This document shows positions 6,147 to 23,164 of a stretch of 50,058 nucleotides of DNA, one piece after another. Each line of letters starts with the position of its first letter. The stretch's first letter is position 1. A program made the translations under genes and the position numbers. Below the pieces are notes generated by a model. That model searched no databases. It saw nothing but the letters and a program-made list of their open reading frames with translations, and had not been told where the DNA came from. The stretch spans positions 1 through 50,058 of IMG/VR virus record IMGVR_UViG_3300037502_000391, one strand, 5' to 3'. The DNA comes from a virus.

Positions 6147-6729
6147 AACTAAAACTCCACAGGACGAAAAGTTTACTGACGTAGACTTCCCGCTATTTGA
6201 GGCTATCAACGCTATTGACAACAAAGACTATGGCTACTATGATAGACTTACCCCTGAGCAACAAAAGAAGTTTGTCCCGTGGATGTTGTTGCATTATGCA
6301 AGTACGGTAAAATCAAGCACAGCATTACAACAGTTTCACTTGTTAAGTACTCAAGAATTTGCGAACAAACATATGTTCAATGAAAACGTAAGCAATCATC
6401 CTAAACTACAGTGGATGATGTTATGTGCCGCAGGATTAGGACAAGGTAAGCAGTTTCATCCTTGGATACCTCAAATTAGAGAACGTGTTAGTAAATTAAA
6501 AGACAAGGCAACAGTTAAAGACGTTAAGGAGTATTACGGCAAGATATATCCTAAAGAGTCTGAGGCTACGCATAAAGAATTAGCAGAGGCTTTTGTGAAA
6601 GAACAATCACGTAAAGTTTACTTGGCAGAGAAATTCCCCAATTTAAAATTTGATGAAATTGAGATATTGAATGGCATCGTTAGCAATAGTGAAATCGAAC
6701 AACACGAAAAAGACAGCGGTAACTGGTAA
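6136..6729 (+). CDS. 62: gp62-like sliding-clamp loader small subunit
   Basis: 197 residues against 187 for T4 gp62. An N-terminal FPLFEAINAIDNKD segment, a helical middle with FVPWML near 46-51, a conserved HPKLQWMM near 87-94, and GKQFHPWIP near 104-112 match the pattern of gp62 in cyanophage-type T4-like viruses. gp62 joins gp44 to form the clamp loader that places gp45 on primer-template DNA. gp44 and gp45 are not in this window, so they must lie elsewhere. The assignment rests on pattern and on the replication context; alternative: another helical replication accessory protein. Confidence 0.6.
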   Translation: MATKTKTPQDEKFTDVDFPLFEAINAIDNKDYGYYDRLTPEQQKKFVPWMLLHYASTVKSSTALQQFHLLSTQEFANKHMFNENVSNHPKLQWMMLCAAGLGQGKQFHPWIPQIRERVSKLKDKATVKDVKEYYGKIYPKESEATHKELAEAFVKEQSRKVYLAEKFPNLKFDEIEILNGIVSNSEIEQHEKDSGNW

Positions 6730-7399
6730 CTTTGGTTGCGAGTTTTGTGGACGTACATTTCTACGTGAGTCCACGGTCTTTAATCATATATGTGAGTCTA
6801 AACGTAGATGGCAAGATAAAGATAAACAGGGTAATCGCATAGGCTTTCAATCTTGGTTGCAGTTCTATACAAAGAATACTGCTACAAAAAAGAAACGTGA
6901 TTATACAGACTTTATTAAAAGTTCTTATTACATTGCTTTTGTTAAGTTTGGAACTTATTGTGCTGACGTAGGTGTTGTCAATGTTAGTAGGTATATTGAT
7001 TGGCTATTAAACAATAAAATTAAAATTGATAATTGGGCTAGTGACACATCTTATACAAAGTTTCTTGTAAGTTATTTGCGTGAAGAAGATGCAATGGATG
7101 CTATTGCACGTAGTTTAGAAACATTGATAGACATGACACCCACTGAAAAGATTTCTACTAAAGATATATTAAGATACGGCAATCGTAATAGAATTTGTTA
7201 CGCTATTACTACAGGTAAAATTAGCCCATGGATATTATATCATAGCGAAAGTGGTAAAAAGTTTTTAGATGAGTTAGATGAAACACAGGTTAAGATGATC
7301 GTAGAGTATATTAATCCTGAGTTGTGGGCAGTTAAGTTTAAGCGCAATCCAGAAGTAGTTAATGAGGTTAAAAAATTATTAAATGAAACAGGATACTGA
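6671..7399 (+). CDS. C2HC zinc-finger protein, unknown function
   Basis: 242 residues from ATG 6671, overlapping the gp62-like gene by 59 bases, an unusually long overlap. Near the N-terminus C23-x2-C26-x12-H39-x-C41 forms a C2HC zinc finger of the DNA-binding type (GRTFLRESTVFNHI in between). The rest is helical with no enzymatic motif. Proteins with this layout occur next to replication genes of aquatic T4-like phages, but I know of no assigned role. Binding to replication or promoter DNA is plausible. The next gene starts inside its last codons. Confidence 0.75.
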   Translation: MASLAIVKSNNTKKTAVTGNFGCEFCGRTFLRESTVFNHICESKRRWQDKDKQGNRIGFQSWLQFYTKNTATKKKRDYTDFIKSSYYIAFVKFGTYCADVGVVNVSRYIDWLLNNKIKIDNWASDTSYTKFLVSYLREEDAMDAIARSLETLIDMTPTEKISTKDILRYGNRNRICYAITTGKISPWILYHSESGKKFLDELDETQVKMIVEYINPELWAVKFKRNPEVVNEVKKLLNETGY

Positions 7400-7592
7400 A
7401 TTTAAACATGCAGTAAGAATTGATTGGAAGCATGGGGACACTATTAGTAAGTGGGATGAAAAATGTGTCTATGCATTAGAGACATTTGGACTACCGGGAG
7501 ATAAGTTTATCACACACCCCAATGAAGATTACATGGAGTTTATTTTCAAAGAAGAACGTGATGCAATATTCTTTAGTCTAGCATGTCAATGA
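7383..7592 (+). CDS. small W-motif family protein, copy A (69 aa)
   Basis: 69 residues. The C-terminal segment FKEERDAIFFSLACQ has the family pattern: a beta strand (F-x-F), an acidic turn, then a helix with a DA-x-x-F-x-L core ending next to the stop. Here the usual Trp is Cys. N-terminal VRIDWKHGD and a central helix with ETFGLPGD fit the strand-helix-strand layout of the other copies. The last codons overlap the next gene's first ATG by ten bases. Unknown function; related copies lie at 7912, 8136, 8544, 8750, 11192 and 12427. Confidence 0.7.
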   Translation: MKQDTEFKHAVRIDWKHGDTISKWDEKCVYALETFGLPGDKFITHPNEDYMEFIFKEERDAIFFSLACQ

Positions 7593-7933
7593 GTCCATTC
7601 ATCATACAAGAAACACCTAAAGGTTGGACAGTAACATGGCCAACTGATAAGTTTGTTCCTATACATACACGTGATGGATTTGATAAGTTGTTAAGATTTT
7701 TATTTGAGAAATGTAAGGTAGACATTGCTAGATTAATGATACAAAGACTTGACGGTTGGGATATATTATATATTGATAGTATTAATTTTTATCAAAATTA
7801 TCAAAGTTATTTGGCCGATGCAATACAAAGGCGTCATGTTGTCTTAGGCGTAATTGCTAGCACAAAAGAAGAAGCAGATAAAATAGCAGAATGTTTGGAT
7901 AAACAATTAGTATGGAGCATACTGAAAGATTAA
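7583..7933 (+). CDS. small hypothetical protein in the W-motif cluster (116 aa)
   Basis: 116 residues, starting MSMSPFIIQETPKGW. Two in-frame ATGs (7583 and 7589) overlap the upstream stop; the second forms an ATGA junction. It ends in a helix with STKEEADKIAECLDKQLVWSILKD, which resembles the other cluster members less clearly. No membrane segment or catalytic motif. It overlaps the next gene by 22 bases. It may be a distant member of the same family; low certainty. Confidence 0.65.
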   Translation: MSMSPFIIQETPKGWTVTWPTDKFVPIHTRDGFDKLLRFLFEKCKVDIARLMIQRLDGWDILYIDSINFYQNYQSYLADAIQRRHVVLGVIASTKEEADKIAECLDKQLVWSILKD

Positions 7934-8145
7934 ATTTCGAGTATTGGGATAATTCAAGTTGGCATCTAGTAGTTGTAGATTTGATAAATGATGACCATGA
8001 GAAATATTTTGCAATACTAGATTGGTTACGTGACAACGTTGATATGCCTTATCGTCATGCACGTTGGCGTTGGTATGAGTCATACGCTGAAGTAAAGTTT
8101 AGATATGAACGTGATTGTATTATGTTTAAGTTGAGATGGCAATGA
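7912..8145 (+). CDS. small W-motif family protein, copy B (77 aa)
   Basis: 77 residues. An N-terminal strand (WHLVVVDL), a helix with WLRDNVDMP, a hairpin rich in Trp, Arg and Tyr (HARWRWYESYAEVKF), and the family C-terminus RYERDCIMFKLRWQ. Layout beta-alpha-beta-beta-alpha as in the neighbours. The last TGG-CAA-TGA contains the start of the next gene (10-base overlap). Unknown function; the basic aromatic surface would suit nucleic-acid or protein binding, but that is a guess. Confidence 0.7.
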   Translation: MEHTERLNFEYWDNSSWHLVVVDLINDDHEKYFAILDWLRDNVDMPYRHARWRWYESYAEVKFRYERDCIMFKLRWQ

Positions 8146-8543
8146 ATATTTGGGATATGGCCAAATACGAAGTTAAGAAACTATTTAAGATCAAGGGCAA
8201 GCACTATAATGATTATATGCCTTGTGGACTTAACATCATAGAGAAACTATGGTGGTGGTTAGTTCCCGGTGTTATTGTCAAAGTGAAATGGCCTAAAGGT
8301 AAGATAACGGTAGATCATAATGACCCAAGATGGGTCGATCTTGGTGGTGCTGTTTATGTAGAGTTAGATAGTGCGGACCCAAATGACTTTTATCGCCCTT
8401 GGATGGAAGCAAATGTTGGTAAACAAAAATTAGATTGGGACTGGGGCTTTGTTGGTAACGATGTTAGCGAAAATACGTTGACCATAAAGATTAGACAAAG
8501 CAAAGCCAAATATGCTACAATGATAGTATTGAATTGGGCGTAA
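8136..8543 (+). CDS. small W-motif family protein, copy C (135 aa)
   Basis: 135 residues, the longest of the cluster. ATG 8136 and ATG 8142 are both in frame and overlap the previous stop. A hydrophobic WWWLVPGVIVKV stretch near 38-49 is too short and interrupted to be a confident transmembrane helix. The C-terminus LTIKIRQSKAKYATMIVLNWA is a diverged version of the family tail and ends W-A-stop. The next gene begins directly after its TAA (TAAATG). Confidence 0.65.
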   Translation: MAMNIWDMAKYEVKKLFKIKGKHYNDYMPCGLNIIEKLWWWLVPGVIVKVKWPKGKITVDHNDPRWVDLGGAVYVELDSADPNDFYRPWMEANVGKQKLDWDWGFVGNDVSENTLTIKIRQSKAKYATMIVLNWA

Positions 8544-8759
8544 ATGATTGAATGTGTAATAGAGATATCACATATCAATGAGATGTATGATATACTAAAG
8601 ATTATTGACGAGTGGAAGTTAGTAAGAAATGCAGACTACACGTTTGCATATGAACAACCCACTTATGATAATCAATACAATTTACTAACTGCTAAACAAG
8701 TACGATTAAATTTTGTAGATGAAAAATATGCAATATGGCTTAAATTAAAATGGGAATGA
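8544..8759 (+). CDS. small W-motif family protein, copy D (71 aa)
   Basis: 71 residues with a strand-helix start (CVIEISHINEMYDILKIIDEW) and the family tail LNFVDEKYAIWLKLKWE. ATG 8544 immediately follows the previous stop. Its final TGG-GAA-TGA overlaps the next gene by ten bases, which again has two in-frame ATGs. Unknown function. Confidence 0.7.
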   Translation: MIECVIEISHINEMYDILKIIDEWKLVRNADYTFAYEQPTYDNQYNLLTAKQVRLNFVDEKYAIWLKLKWE

Positions 8760-9133
8760 CTACAGTGATTAAAAAACGAATACTATCAGCGTCAAGAATA
8801 ACAACTAAGCCTTTAAGGATGGATAGTCCTGTAAGATTTAAATTTGTAAAGTTGGATGCACGTTATACAGGATACCCTAGTTTCAAATATATGATTGAGG
8901 TGATATCATTACACAGAGGTCCAAAAATTAAGGGCTTTAACGAAATACGTGATTGGTGTATAGAGACTTGGGGAATGAGTATAGAACGTGAACAATACTT
9001 GTATATGCAAGACATGGATCCACTGGGCATAAAGTTGAACCCTGCTTGGTGCTGGCATACTGAGGATCATAAGATGAATATATACTTGCGTGATGAAGCA
9101 GAAAAAGTTTGGGCTGAATTAAGATGGAAGTAA
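8750..9133 (+). CDS. small W-motif family protein, copy E (127 aa)
   Basis: 127 residues. After a basic N-terminal tail of about 40 residues comes the family layout: strand YMIEVISLHRG, helix with EIRDWCIETWGM, a central hairpin, and the C-terminus MNIYLRDEAEKVWAELRWK. The W-C pair in the helix followed by a WG or FG turn is shared with the copy at 11192. Its last codons TGG-AAG-TAA overlap the start of the radical SAM fusion by ten bases, tying the two together translationally. Confidence 0.7.
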   Translation: MGMTTVIKKRILSASRITTKPLRMDSPVRFKFVKLDARYTGYPSFKYMIEVISLHRGPKIKGFNEIRDWCIETWGMSIEREQYLYMQDMDPLGIKLNPAWCWHTEDHKMNIYLRDEAEKVWAELRWK

Positions 9134-11202
9134 AGAAACCTATATACTGTTCCTTAGCATTTGGATCAGCATCCATAAACTCTTTTGGAGAGTATATTCC
9201 TTGTTGTAATATTAGGACCGACAAATGGAAGATGTACAAGGACGGACACTATGATTATGGTGTAGTGGGTAAGGATCCTCATATAAGAATCAACGCTTCT
9301 AATTTAATGGAAGTAAGACAGAAACTTATAAATGGAGAATGGCCTGAGGCATGTTATAATTGCAAAGAAGCAGAAAACAACGGTGTTGGTTCTATGCGCA
9401 CCATATGGAATAAAACTTTAGAAAAATTTGATATCCCTTTAAATGAGTCTATCAATCCAAATGATGTAAAATATCTTGACCTTACATTTAGCACTAAGTG
9501 TAACAGTAAATGTATGACATGCAGTTCCTCTCTTAGTGATTTTTGGGAATCTGAGTGGGACGCTATTTGGCGTATTCGTCCTGAACAACAACTAAGACCT
9601 GCTCACGGGAATGTAGTAAATCGAATATGCATTGATAGTAATACAACACGAAAAATTGTGAATGATTTCCCTAATGTAGAATTCATAAGTTTTGTGGGGG
9701 GCGAACCTACAATATCAGATGAACATACCGAGTTTTTAAAATTATTAGTAGAAAACGGTAGAAGCAGTAAGATTAAAATAAGTTATGTGACTAATTTAAC
9801 AGGAATCACAGATGAGTTAATTAGTTTATGGAAGCAATTTAAAGCAGTACATCTGAGTGTCAGCATCGACGGATATCAAAGAGTCAATGAATATATTAGA
9901 TATCCATTTAAGTGGACTAAGATTGAAAGCAATCTTAGAATGTTGCTTAGTATGATGCAAGAAAGTTTTCCAGAAGATACAATGCAACCTCCTACATTCA
10001 CAGTTGGTTTAAGTTGTACAGTAAGTTTGTTCAATGCTATACAATGTATGGATTTGTTTGAATTTTGGCTTAAGACTGCTCTCTCATATAGAAAACCAAA
10101 CAATGACGGTACATTAGCACATATGGCAGGGTGCTTTGTAAATAGAGTTTCACACCCTCAATATAGTTTAGTAAGTTTACTTTCTCTAAAATATAGATCC
10201 GCTGGTATCGAAAAGGGTAAAAAGATTTTAGAATTTGTAGACTCTTATTTAAAAGATCATCCAGATGAAAGAATAGATTTTGGATTTATTGAGTCTGTAA
10301 AATTAGTTATTAAATGGTTAGAAGAACCACAGATTATCAATTCAACATTCTTATCTCAATCTAAACATTTTATAACTGAATCTGATTCTTTTAGAAACAG
10401 GCATTTAAAGTATTATATACCTGAACTATGGGAAGAATTAGAAAGTATTTGGAAGGCAGGAATTATTCCAGGGGATTATTACGTACCAGGGTTGATTATG
10501 AATACTGTAAAAAATGAACTAGTAGATGGTTCAGGTTATGTAGTAACAGACAATATTATATCCAATGAACTTATTAATAAGGTAATATCAAAACTTCCCG
10601 CATGCTATCCTGTACGTGCTAGTAGCAGAGATAAAAAGTATGCAGAGCGTGATGATATAAAGACATTACCTGACATAAGTGTTTGGTGGAGTCAAACTGT
10701 TATGGATTGGCCTGAAGTTCAGGAAATTGCTAAAATTGTAGGAGAACAAGTTAAAAAATATTTACCTTCAGCAGAGTTTTATGCTAGTGATATTGTAACT
10801 ATTGATTCAGGCTCAACTTGGTTTAATCCACATGTAGATACTCCTCATAGATTTAGAAAATGGAATTACAACAGAAATTTGTTAGGGGTGCAAGTCATTG
10901 TAGCATTGCATGATATGGATAGAGATAGTGCTAGTACAGGCATCGTACCCCATAGTCAAAAGTTAGACTATGATATTAATTTATGCTATCGAGGTCACTA
11001 TAATGAATGGTTCTTGAAAAATGTGATGCAGCCAACATTACCCAAAGGTTGCGTATTGTTGTATAATTGCAGGTTATTACATAGCAGTATGCCCAATCCT
11101 TTAGATTGGCCTCGCCCAGCCCTCTTGCTAAATTATTTGGATTCAAGTATAATTGAAGAAGTAACTAAAATAGATAATGTATGGACAAGTAATGGCAAAT
11201 AA
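9124..11202 (+). CDS. radical SAM (twitch-type) - 2OG-Fe(II) oxygenase fusion
   Basis: 692 residues. N-terminal half: GEYIPCCNIR near 22-31, the 4Fe-4S/SAM motif C126-x3-C130-x2-C133, GGEP at 192-195 (SAM amino-group binding) and VSIDG near 243 are those of a radical SAM enzyme of the twitch-domain type found in aquatic phages. A helical linker spans about 330-460. C-terminal half (about 460-685): a PhyH-like double-stranded beta helix with H570-x-D572, distal H653 and a following Arg in RPALLL for 2-oxoglutarate. Both halves keep their metal ligands, so two oxidative activities sit on one chain. It is flanked by small W-motif proteins, which could be substrates. Substrate not known; the fusion is open throughout without frameshift. 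Confidence 0.88.
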   Translation: MEVKKPIYCSLAFGSASINSFGEYIPCCNIRTDKWKMYKDGHYDYGVVGKDPHIRINASNLMEVRQKLINGEWPEACYNCKEAENNGVGSMRTIWNKTLEKFDIPLNESINPNDVKYLDLTFSTKCNSKCMTCSSSLSDFWESEWDAIWRIRPEQQLRPAHGNVVNRICIDSNTTRKIVNDFPNVEFISFVGGEPTISDEHTEFLKLLVENGRSSKIKISYVTNLTGITDELISLWKQFKAVHLSVSIDGYQRVNEYIRYPFKWTKIESNLRMLLSMMQESFPEDTMQPPTFTVGLSCTVSLFNAIQCMDLFEFWLKTALSYRKPNNDGTLAHMAGCFVNRVSHPQYSLVSLLSLKYRSAGIEKGKKILEFVDSYLKDHPDERIDFGFIESVKLVIKWLEEPQIINSTFLSQSKHFITESDSFRNRHLKYYIPELWEELESIWKAGIIPGDYYVPGLIMNTVKNELVDGSGYVVTDNIISNELINKVISKLPACYPVRASSRDKKYAERDDIKTLPDISVWWSQTVMDWPEVQEIAKIVGEQVKKYLPSAEFYASDIVTIDSGSTWFNPHVDTPHRFRKWNYNRNLLGVQVIVALHDMDRDSASTGIVPHSQKLDYDINLCYRGHYNEWFLKNVMQPTLPKGCVLLYNCRLLHSSMPNPLDWPRPALLLNYLDSSIIEEVTKIDNVWTSNGK

Positions 11203-11446
11203 TTTTCCTAGTTTAGGTAACTTTCATCCTGTAATTGAATATGTAGATGTAGTACAAAAAAATCCACGTGATACACCAGGAGTGACATTTACAATAAAAG
11301 GTAACCCCAAAGAAGTTATAAGTTGGTGTCGTAGAAACTTTGGTGATCGTGGTGATGGCTGGGACTTTATGGGTGGCAATAAACATGTTCAAATAACATT
11401 GTGGTCTAGTAGATTAATTACAATGTGGGAACTGTGGCAGAACTAA
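11192..11446 (+). CDS. small W-motif family protein, copy F (84 aa)
   Basis: 84 residues from ATG 11192, which has GGAC upstream at 11183-11189 and overlaps the oxygenase stop by 11 bases; an in-frame ATG at 11177 would add five residues but has no ribosome site. It shows the full family layout: strand GVTFTIKG, helix VISWCRRNFGDRGDGWDF, and tail VQITLWSSRLITMWELWQN. The downstream exonuclease gene starts one base after its stop. Confidence 0.7.
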   Translation: MANNFPSLGNFHPVIEYVDVVQKNPRDTPGVTFTIKGNPKEVISWCRRNFGDRGDGWDFMGGNKHVQITLWSSRLITMWELWQN

Positions 11447-11447
11447 T

Positions 11448-11996
11448 ATGGCAAATGATGTAATGATTGACATGGAGACACTAGATACGTCTCCGTACTG
11501 TGTCATATTGACAATAGGCGCAGTAAGATTTGATCCTAAAGGTACTGGCGTAATACAGAAGTTAGAATTGCGCCCCACCATTGAAGAGCAAACTGAAACA
11601 TACAATAGGGTGATTAACGATGATACTTTACGCTGGTGGTCTGAGCAGAGCCCTGAGGCACTGGAAGAAGCATTGGGAGACAGGGGACGCACATCATTTA
11701 GAGAGTGCATGGAGACCCTTTATAAGTTTTGTTGGAACCGCCGTGCTGTTTGGAGCAATGGTGCTTCATTTGATGTGGTTGTTGCTGAGACAGCCTTTAG
11801 ACAGGTACTCAATGATAAGCCTAATCCTATTCCTTGGCCTTTTTACACTATTAGAGATACTAGGACTTTATACGAAATTGCGGGAGTTAAACTCAAAGAC
11901 GGAGGACATGTCACAAGTCACAAAGCCGTCGAAGATGCGGAACGACAAGCAATAGTAGTACAAGAGGCTTACAAAAAATTAGGATTAGTAAAATGA
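11448..11996 (+). CDS. DEDDh 3'-5' exonuclease (Rv2179c-like)
   Basis: 182 residues with the DEDDh signature: D8-x-E10 (MIDMET), D109 in NGASFDV, and H158 with D163 in SHKAVEDA. These ligate the two metal ions that hydrolyse the 3' terminal nucleotide of DNA or RNA. The compact size and the WWSEQSPEA segment near 63-71 match the Rv2179c-type 3'-5' exoribonuclease domain, also related to T4 DexA. It may degrade host RNA or DNA ends to supply nucleotides. It overlaps the next gene by four bases (ATGA). Confidence 0.85.
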   Translation: MANDVMIDMETLDTSPYCVILTIGAVRFDPKGTGVIQKLELRPTIEEQTETYNRVINDDTLRWWSEQSPEALEEALGDRGRTSFRECMETLYKFCWNRRAVWSNGASFDVVVAETAFRQVLNDKPNPIPWPFYTIRDTRTLYEIAGVKLKDGGHVTSHKAVEDAERQAIVVQEAYKKLGLVK

Positions 11997-12430
11997 AAAA
12001 ACTTTGCAGACGTAAAGTTTTCATTCGTCAAAAAGATTTCTATGAGCAATTAGAGAAGCAAGCATATGCATGTGGATATACTAATGCTTATTGGAAACCT
12101 ATATCTTTACAAGAAGTTGAAAAAGAAATAATATTACTAATATTGAAAGACGAGTTACAGTCGGGAAGTGAATTTTTTATATCTACCAGAGAATTAAAGT
12201 CATACGCTAATCCATTTAAGAAATGGGATTTAGGTAACTTAGAAAAGTCTGCTAGGATTTATATATCATACGCCAAAACTAGAAAAAATTTGTATCATGA
12301 AAAATACTCTCATTGGTCATGGAAATATGACACCGATACTGATCGTATCTATATAAGATATCGTGTTGATCAACCGTGGATACCAATGGGCATTGGGGTG
12401 TTAGAGCGAGAATATGAACTTAACAAATGA
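11993..12430 (+). CDS. hypothetical protein (145 aa)
   Basis: 145 residues, very basic at the N-terminus (MKKLCRRKVF) and rich in Tyr, Lys and Trp. Helical in the first half, then a beta-hairpin-like segment (KYDTDTDRIYIRYRVDQPW near 115-133). No motif recognised and no membrane segment. It overlaps both neighbours by ATGA junctions, so it is part of the same coupled operon. Confidence 0.65.
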   Translation: MKKLCRRKVFIRQKDFYEQLEKQAYACGYTNAYWKPISLQEVEKEIILLILKDELQSGSEFFISTRELKSYANPFKKWDLGNLEKSARIYISYAKTRKNLYHEKYSHWSWKYDTDTDRIYIRYRVDQPWIPMGIGVLEREYELNK

Positions 12431-12648
12431 ATGATTGGTATACTATATTAAGTCCGTCAAAACCTACTACAGGTCATCATTATCAGATAAAATGGTGCGA
12501 AGAAAGATTAGGTAAACGTTGGAGTGCTATAGATAATAGAGAAGGTATATGGTGTTGTTTTTGGGGCGGCAGAAGCATACCCGGCAAGTATAGATTTGAA
12601 TTTAAAAATGAACAGGACGCTATATTGTTTAGTTTGACATGGCTATGA
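12427..12648 (+). CDS. small W-motif family protein, copy G (73 aa)
   Basis: 73 residues. Strand HHYQIKW, helix, aromatic centre (GIWCCFWGG), then the best match to the family tail, FEFKNEQDAILFSLTWL. The final TGG-CTA-TGA overlaps the next gene by ten bases, with two in-frame ATGs (12639, 12645). This copy and copy A (7383) share the E-x-DAI-x-FSL core most closely. Unknown function. Confidence 0.72.
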   Translation: MNDWYTILSPSKPTTGHHYQIKWCEERLGKRWSAIDNREGIWCCFWGGRSIPGKYRFEFKNEQDAILFSLTWL

Positions 12649-13220
12649 AATTTCAAAGTGATATTGATATTGACGTGGGTGATAGAGATAAAGTTTTATC
12701 ATTGATAAAACATATTCCTGCCAGCATGCGTAATGTCACCCCCATACGAAAACATCCTACTGGTATCTATGTCACAGAGATTCCATATGATCCTATCAAT
12801 AATATGTCAGCACTTCATTATGAAGTTGCTGAGGATCGTGGATATTTTAAATTAGACTTGCTAAACGTTCACATATACAATCAAGTACATGATGAAAAAC
12901 ATCTTATAGAGTTGATGGGCGAACCTGATTGGACTATGCTGAATCATAGAAATATTGTAGAACAATTGATACACTTAGGCAATCAGTATGATACATTACT
13001 AAAGATGCCCGAGTCTATTAATAGTATACCCAGACTAGCAATGTTTCTTGCAGTGATTAGACCTGCAAAGAGACATTTAATTGGTAGAACATATAAAGAG
13101 ATAAATCAAACTGTGTGGGACAAAGATCACACTGGTTATAGTTTTAAGCGTAGTCATGCTGTTGCTTATGCGCAGTTAGTTGTAGTACATATGAATTTGT
13201 TGAGGGAACATGGAAATTAA
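12639..13220 (+). CDS. small protein resembling a segment of bacterial Pol III alpha
   Basis: 193 residues. FKLDLLNVHIY (70-80), DWTMLNHRNIVEQLIHL (97-113), AVIRPAKRHLIG (138-149) and YSFKRSHAVAYAQL (167-180) follow, in order, the DnaE segments known as KxDLLGL, FQLES, RPGP and FNKSHAxAYA. In DnaE these form part of palm and fingers. The catalytic Asp residues of DnaE lie outside the stretch and are not present, so it cannot be an active polymerase by itself. It might bind template or dNTP, or act on host polymerase. Two start ATGs are possible. It overlaps peptide deformylase by 11 bases. Confidence 0.65.
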   Translation: MAMKFQSDIDIDVGDRDKVLSLIKHIPASMRNVTPIRKHPTGIYVTEIPYDPINNMSALHYEVAEDRGYFKLDLLNVHIYNQVHDEKHLIELMGEPDWTMLNHRNIVEQLIHLGNQYDTLLKMPESINSIPRLAMFLAVIRPAKRHLIGRTYKEINQTVWDKDHTGYSFKRSHAVAYAQLVVVHMNLLREHGN

Positions 13221-13692
13221 ATTACTTAAAGAAGATGATCCGCAGTTAAGAGAAGTTTCAGAAGCATGGAACTTTGAAACGGATGGAGACCCTACTGAAT
13301 TAGTCAAGGCTATGACTAAAATTATGTTTGAGAGTGGTGGCATAGGATTAGCAGCCCCACAGTGCGGGGTAAAGAAACGAATATTTCTTATGGGGAACCA
13401 AGAGAAGTTAATTGTTTGTATCAATCCTGAGATACTAGAATCAAGTGGAGAGAATCGTGCCCAAGAGGGTTGTTTGAGTTTTCCTAAACTGTGGTTAACA
13501 GTTAAAAGACCAGATACTGTTAAAGTCAAATATCAACAACTATCAGGGAATATAGTAGAACAGGAGTTGGGAGAATTACCTGCTAGAGTGTTTCAGCATG
13601 AATTTGACCATCTAGATGGTGTGTGCTTTGATACTAAGGTAGCGAAGTTAGGATTACAACTAGCAAAGGAACGTAGAAAGCGTAAGGGTTAA
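13210..13692 (+). CDS. def: peptide deformylase
   Basis: 160 residues with all three motifs: GIGLAAPQ (44-51), EGCLSFP (86-92, metal ligand C88) and QHEFDHLDG (129-137, ligands H130 and H134, catalytic E131). The enzyme removes the N-formyl group from new proteins in the cytoplasm. Slightly shorter than bacterial enzymes, as usual in phages, with a basic C-terminal tail. Aquatic phages often carry it, probably to keep translation of phage or photosystem proteins going late in infection. Last gene of the operon starting at 5240; it overlaps the opposing gene by four bases. Confidence 0.95.
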   Translation: MEIKLLKEDDPQLREVSEAWNFETDGDPTELVKAMTKIMFESGGIGLAAPQCGVKKRIFLMGNQEKLIVCINPEILESSGENRAQEGCLSFPKLWLTVKRPDTVKVKYQQLSGNIVEQELGELPARVFQHEFDHLDGVCFDTKVAKLGLQLAKERRKRKG

Positions 13693-22786: not shown

Positions 22787-22815
22787 TTGACTTTCACTAA
22801 GAATAGTGATACACT
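22787..22815 (+). promoter_or_regulatory. sigma70-type promoter before the Fe-S carrier
   Basis: TTGACT 22787-22792, 17-base spacer, TACACT 22810-22815. The -10 box lies in a perfect inverted repeat (22800-22820). Confidence 0.65.
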
Positions 22816-22820
22816 ATTCT
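22800..22820. promoter_or_regulatory. operator-like inverted repeat over the -10 box
   Basis: AGAATAGTG (22800-22808) and CACTATTCT (22812-22820), nine-base perfect arms with a 3-base centre, covering the -10 element of the sigma70 promoter. Position and symmetry suit a dimeric repressor site; no T-run follows, so a terminator is less likely. Confidence 0.55.
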
Positions 22821-22824
22821 ATCA

Positions 22825-22832
22825 AATAAATA
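22825..22832 (+). promoter_or_regulatory. T4-type late promoter element, leaderless
   Basis: AATAAATA, five bases before ATG 22838. This gene therefore has both a sigma70-type and a late promoter. Confidence 0.65.
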
Positions 22833-22837
22833 TTTGT

Positions 22838-23164
22838 ATGATATCACTTACAGAAACCGCTGCAACCAAAATACAACAACAATTAGATAAACGTGGCAAA
22901 GGTTTAGGTATACGTGTTGGAGTAAAAACTACTGGATGTAGTGGTCTAGCATACACATTAGAATACGTTGATATTGCTCCTGTTACACGTGATCAATTTA
23001 TGTATGAATCATATGGAGTAAAAGTTTGGATTGATGGTAAGTCACATCCATATTTAAATGGGTGTACAATGGACTATCAAAAGAAAGGCCTCAATGAGGG
23101 CTTTGAATTTATAAACCCAAACGAAAAAGATCGTTGTGGGTGCGGAGAAAGTTTTAGAGTATAA
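22838..23164 (+). CDS. IscA/HesB-type Fe-S cluster carrier
   Basis: 108 residues from ATG 22838; upstream in-frame codons to 22787 are promoter sequence. C34 in TTGCSG and the pair C100, C102 in RCGCGESF are the three cluster ligands of A-type carriers. Such proteins deliver 2Fe-2S or 4Fe-4S clusters to target enzymes, and they occur in many aquatic T4-like phages. Possible clients here are the radical SAM fusion and the RecB-like nuclease two genes downstream. Double promoter with an operator-like repeat suggests expression in two phases. Confidence 0.92.
   Translation: MISLTETAATKIQQQLDKRGKGLGIRVGVKTTGCSGLAYTLEYVDIAPVTRDQFMYESYGVKVWIDGKSHPYLNGCTMDYQKKGLNEGFEFINPNEKDRCGCGESFRV

Follow-up and report, generated by a model that had tools for sequence, protein, structure and literature searches.

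A radical SAM enzyme fused to a PhyH-type 2-oxoglutarate oxygenase at a hypervariable locus of uncultured aquatic phages

Introduction

Radical SAM (rSAM) chemistry relies on an oxygen-sensitive Fe-S cluster, whereas 2-oxoglutarate (2OG) oxygenases need O2, and the occurrence of both on one chain is therefore unexpected. The IMG/VR record IMGVR_UViG_3300037502_000391 (positions 1-50,058; this whole stretch of 50,058 nt is hereafter called the window) contains a viral gene that had been predicted to join the two. Such an rSAM-2OG fusion poses a direct mechanistic question: do both halves serve one process, and on what might they act?

Results

Layout of the fused gene

The predicted single frame of 692 residues was confirmed, and the following features were placed in it (all on the + strand):

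9124..11202, +, rSAM-2OG fusion gene, 692 aa, a single uninterrupted ATG-initiated open reading frame
9148..9363, +, N-terminal twitch-like segment, residues 9-80 (NF033640 match; cysteine conservation)
9499..9522, +, radical SAM CxxxCxxC motif, C126/C130/C133 (sequence; 71/71 alignment rows)
9697..9708, +, GGEP SAM-binding motif, residues 192-195 (GGE in 71/71 rows, P in 68/71)
10459..10521, +, interdomain linker, residues about 446-466 (low pLDDT at 454-462; position of the gene split in the relative L008)
10522..11199, +, PhyH-type 2OG oxygenase domain, residues about 467-692 (Pfam profile, fold search)
10831..10839, +, HxD iron ligands H570 and D572 (alignment conservation)
11080..11115, +, distal His H653 to 2OG-binding Arg R664 (alignment conservation)

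Both halves had been proposed to be complete, and a domain search placed NF033640, PF04055 and PF05721 above their cut-offs in the respective halves, with the metal-site residues where they had been assigned. The rSAM half matches the NCBIfam model NF033640 (N_Twi_rSAM) with 253 bits (cut-off 170) over residues 7-437 (profile positions 3-396 of 398) and Pfam Radical_SAM (PF04055) with 35.8 bits (cut-off 29.5). The motifs C126-x3-C130-x2-C133 and GGEP had been located correctly and are conserved in an alignment of 71 rows. The twitch-like segment has five further invariant cysteines (C9, C27, C28, C77, and C80), absent from the original prediction, which probably bind an auxiliary Fe-S cluster. 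The SPASM model PF13186 scores only 15.2 bits at residues 9-81, below its gathering cut-off of 21.5; we classed this segment as twitch via NF033640. By sequence, the rSAM half is related to the PDB entry 5wgg (E 9e-6). The profile match and conserved cysteines identify this half as a member of the N_Twi_rSAM family, for which SAM cleavage is predicted.

The 2OG half exceeds the PhyH (PF05721) cut-off of 22 bits, scoring 29.8 bits within the full chain and 33.3 bits when taken alone, and the same model is matched by all 31 rows of our 2OG alignment (A4). The ligand set H570-x-D572 ... H653 followed by Arg (R664) was also positioned correctly and is invariant in the alignments; every canonical 2OG domain spanning the site (79/79) has HxD, His, and Arg intact, and the rSAM cysteines are likewise intact. 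The PDB matches listed in the fold search with the full model fell on the 2OG half, and the rSAM half was compared by fold against BFVD only. For the 2OG half the search returned PhyH-fold oxygenases, the best having Z scores of about 19-20 (AndA, FtmOx1, KanJ, HygX, and AviO1, which are small-molecule oxygenases). By its triad, arginine, and fold, this half is a PhyH-type Fe(II)/2OG oxygenase with predicted turnover.

Structure prediction of the full chain by AlphaFold gave a pLDDT of 87 and a pTM of 0.66, the linker at 454-462 being of low confidence, and in BFVD the two halves matched separate models, one half those of phage rSAM proteins and the other those of phage PhyH proteins. Values of dN/dS are about 0.04-0.15 for each half and about 0.08-0.28 across the junction, indicating purifying selection in most pairs. 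The fused frame recurs in many contigs, so the fusion is not a product of chance or of assembly error; together with the selection across the junction, this rules out a sequencing or assembly artefact.

Fused, split, and swapped relatives

A virome search for the same fusion, suggested with the original prediction, revealed its recurrence in many virus contigs. The fused frame is found in L001-L006 (about 75% identity) and L014-L016 (about 62%), and a second fused set (L103, L106-L110, L112-L114, L116, L117, and L145) has about 40-44% identity in the rSAM half. The L008 version is divided at the linker into two genes that share an ATGA overlap, a two-gene layout that the original prediction had not mentioned. 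In many non-fused relatives the rSAM and 2OG genes are directly adjacent in either order and often overlap, the 2OG gene coming first in L035, L045, L046, L049, and L111. Altogether, 87 rSAM rows (including some duplicates) comprised 26 fused genes, 16 rSAM-2OG pairs, 6 2OG-rSAM pairs, 33 without a neighbouring 2OG gene, and 6 lying at the end of a contig. Not all relatives have the pair: 2OG stands alone at this position in many relatives, and rSAM occurs without 2OG in L126, L132, L136, and L138. Since each occurs alone in some relatives, neither enzyme strictly needs the other.

An AU test rejected the grouping of all fused rSAMs as one clade (p-AU 6.1e-5), which rules out a single origin of all fusions without fission and implies either two or more fusion events or repeated reversal of the fusion. 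The split pairs branch around the window's fused group in the rSAM tree, and the 2OG tree also parts this group from the second fused group. Considering the AU rejection and the position of the split pairs, two fusions appear to be a more economical account than repeated fission. The adjacency or fusion of both enzymes in uncultured aquatic phages suggests that they act as one unit.

A further arrangement was found in four relatives, whose rSAM is joined to a 2OG domain that has lost HxD and Arg, with an intact 2OG gene directly upstream:

L104:1448-3973, intact 2OG gene and rSAM fused to a degenerate 2OG domain
L105:5281-7806, the same arrangement
L115:132-2696, the same arrangement
L123:5281-7806, the same arrangement

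A comparison of the degenerate domains of L105 and L115 gave dN 0.23 and dS 1.33, so this domain is maintained by purifying selection. Retention of a metal-less 2OG domain beside an intact upstream copy supports a complex of both enzymes, and the simplest reading is that the fused degenerate domain would dock the active 2OG enzyme.

Small proteins around the fusion

The fused gene lies in an island bounded by a zinc-finger-type gene (6671-7399) and an exonuclease gene (11448-11996; PF16473). The interval is hypervariable, with gene overlaps throughout. Pseudomonas phage Paride has no such insert, its zinc-finger homologue being directly followed by a gene annotated as DNA polymerase; the window gene of this polymerase's kind is 12639-13220, beyond the island. 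A peptide deformylase gene (13210-13692; PF01327, 137.5 bits) was also observed near the island. The small genes next to the fusion are:

7383..8759, +, array of small W-motif-type genes (7383-7592, 7583-7933, 7912-8145, 8136-8543, and 8544-8759)
8750..9133, +, LDGR small protein, 127 aa, W-motif family, its end overlapping the fusion start by 10 nt
11177..11446, +, downstream W-motif protein, 89 aa, its start overlapping the fusion end by 26 nt

The array genes had no Pfam or PHROGs match. Small proteins with F-x-L-x-W-like ends are encoded in the window (7383-9133 and 11177-12648) and in L008, L039, L126, L218, and others, and these ends often overlap the start codon of the following gene (ATGG contains the W codon TGG). 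A protein similar to the 11177-11446 product sits just upstream of a stand-alone 2OG gene in L039, L040, and L043. Two further observations concern such arrays: in L043 (3168-5213) a 681-aa open reading frame with a signal-peptide-like start and protease-like sequence adjoins a W-motif/2OG array, and in L102 (7709-10799) tandem proteins of 513 and 515 aa with an rSAM-type CxxxCxxC motif (RGCVFKCKFC) lie 3' of a twitch rSAM and W-motif genes.

It had been suggested that the W-motif proteins coupled to the fusion on both sides might be its substrate. From an independent sample that used the zinc-finger gene as anchor, 50 complete intervals were obtained, of which 22 contain 2OG only, 15 neither enzyme, 7 the fusion, 5 separate rSAM and 2OG genes, and 1 rSAM only. 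Every complete interval without either enzyme has W-motif genes (15/15; median 4), and since they also fill enzyme-free loci, the family is not specifically tied to the enzymes, and a substrate role for the family as a whole is not supported. The suggestion survives only for the LDGR protein (8750-9133). After dereplication, LDGR was found in 18 of 31 enzyme-bearing intervals (thus missing from 13) and in 1 of 13 enzyme-free ones (Fisher p 0.002, a value uncorrected for shared ancestry). Of 42 distinct cases, 36 have LDGR abutting or overlapping an enzyme start, although some overlaps may be overstated, as each was taken from the earliest start codon available. LDGR accompanies both fused groups and split pairs, and it also occurs in 2OG-only phages.

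The invariant residues of LDGR are D36, R38, G41, F45, R67, G75, S77, N97, W100, and I111, and the protein contains Trp and Cys. Its predicted structure (pLDDT 79) has the order strand-strand-helix-helix-strand-strand-helix, with no confident match in the PDB, and no recognisable family was found for it. No RRE (PqqD-like) model was among the Pfam and NCBIfam domain matches. LDGR is the best candidate for a substrate or partner of the enzymes; a partner role, or mere co-inheritance, would fit just as well as a substrate role.

Phage context and Fe-S supply

The tail sheath protein of the window is nearest to those of the large myoviruses Phosso, Atu_ph07, and Paride/PA5oct. One distant gene might be relevant to cluster supply:

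22787..23164, +, A-type Fe-S carrier (PF01521, 63.6 bits), a possible cluster donor

This carrier was detected in 10 of 19 related records tested, and as it is also encoded by relatives without enzymes at this locus, it is ruled out as a specific partner. In five large relatives (L088:7258-14244, also L078, L080, L089, and L090) several rSAM genes, three of them twitch rSAMs, form a run elsewhere in the genome, and the 2OG gene has no adjacent rSAM. The L088-type run lies near genes that resemble glycosyltransferases by eye.

Discussion

Recurrent fusion, adjacent or overlapping pairs, and the pseudo-oxygenase cases together argue that both halves serve one process. Our main reading, to which we assign a probability of about 50%, is that a single substrate is tailored in two coupled steps, LDGR being the foremost candidate for this substrate or for a partner presenting it. 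The twitch-type rSAM would cleave SAM and abstract a hydrogen atom, with the assistance of an auxiliary Fe-S cluster, and the PhyH-type Fe(II)/2OG oxygenase would act in the same pathway, most likely successively on the same substrate. The fusion would fix the stoichiometry of rSAM and 2OG, while in relatives the same pair encoded by two adjacent genes would presumably form the same complex in trans. LDGR, encoded immediately upstream, would be the most likely substrate or substrate-presenting partner. In this scheme we infer complex formation, both catalytic activities, the order of steps, and the substrate. A narrower version, namely that LDGR, rSAM, and 2OG constitute a phage protein-modification system in which two successive radical modifications are made by one chain or a tight complex, is a tentative proposal that we regard as rather unlikely. 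If it were true, the LDGR system would add a new class to the post-translational modifications of phages, one that lies outside the known RiPP families.

The alternative that survives best is small-molecule tailoring, in which the halves would act sequentially on a sugar, nucleotide, lipid, or cofactor and LDGR would be a regulator or an unrelated neighbour. Solved PhyH relatives (AndA, FtmOx1, and KanJ) are mostly small-molecule enzymes, and for this reason we keep the alternative as a possible, if less favoured, explanation. The best PDB folds of the 2OG half (Z about 19-20) and the twitch rSAMs that related large phages encode elsewhere, near glycosyltransferase-like genes (by eye, in L088), point in its direction; however, the locus has no constant gene of a sugar or nucleotide pathway, whereas LDGR is the recurrent neighbour.

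It is also conceivable, but improbable, that the two are independent co-expressed enzymes carried as cargo of a hypervariable island, the fusion being an occasional by-product without functional coupling. The variability of the interval, its pervasive overlaps, the occurrence of each enzyme alone in places, and the lack of such an insert in the cultured cousin Paride are all compatible with this idea. However, the two genes are neighbours in either order and form one gene in two separate rSAM groups, purifying selection acts across the junction, and a pseudo-2OG domain is kept on the rSAM beside an intact copy. That the 2OG domain chiefly serves the rSAM as a scaffold or dimerisation module and not as a catalytic partner, as the conserved metal-less fused copies in L104/L105/L115/L123 might suggest, is very unlikely, since an intact 2OG gene lies upstream in every metal-less case and all other copies covering the site keep HxD, His, and Arg.

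Coupled two-step tailoring may be approached through the recurrent fusion, the split pairs in both orders, and the retained pseudo-oxygenase, which are natural variants for probing complex formation. LDGR also offers a concrete substrate candidate in a phage group in which almost all accessory genes are unexplained.

Comparison with known systems

Genome contig scans, which used degenerate patterns reaching fairly close relatives only, detected no cellular homologues. Among cultured phages neither the 2OG half nor LDGR had a match and the fusion was not found, the only matches being distant, rSAM-only, and nearly all in Vibrio phages; plasmids gave one weak rSAM-core match. In the accessible portion of the literature searched, which covers subscription journals little, we did not find an rSAM-2OG fusion with an LDGR neighbour. 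Both halves belong to known families, and the fusion joining them was found neither in that literature nor in cultured phages.

Prokaryotic viperin (pVip) was rejected as an identity for the rSAM half (27 of 180 bits with NCBIfam; 30 bits in PADLOC, rSAM core only), as were the cyclophane-forming RiPP maturases YhhB and XyeB (31.5 of 445 and 31 of 450 bits, far below the equivalog cut-offs). SPASM/twitch RiPP maturases (YhhB, XyeB, and others) share with our locus a weak similarity in the rSAM core and a neighbouring small protein gene, but all of them score far below their cut-offs, and no leader/core architecture is apparent here. The T4-like marine phages described by Nishimura et al. (2017, PMC5332604) encode an A-type Fe-S carrier together with as many as 12 rSAM genes; rSAM and carrier are common to them and the window, whereas the available part of their description contains no 2OG fusion or LDGR partner.

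Other likenesses are at the level of the single halves. AndA, FtmOx1, and KanJ (PhyH, PF05721) have the fold (Z about 20) and the HxD...H...R site in common with the 2OG half, but the solved PhyH enzymes have about 9-20% identity to it and are stand-alone proteins of cellular biosynthesis, while the 2OG half belongs to a phage subgroup. The rSAM half resembles N_Twi_rSAM proteins (NF033640) over residues 7-437 and in its N-terminal cysteines; however, that model spans the rSAM half only, and here a 2OG oxygenase is fused behind it.
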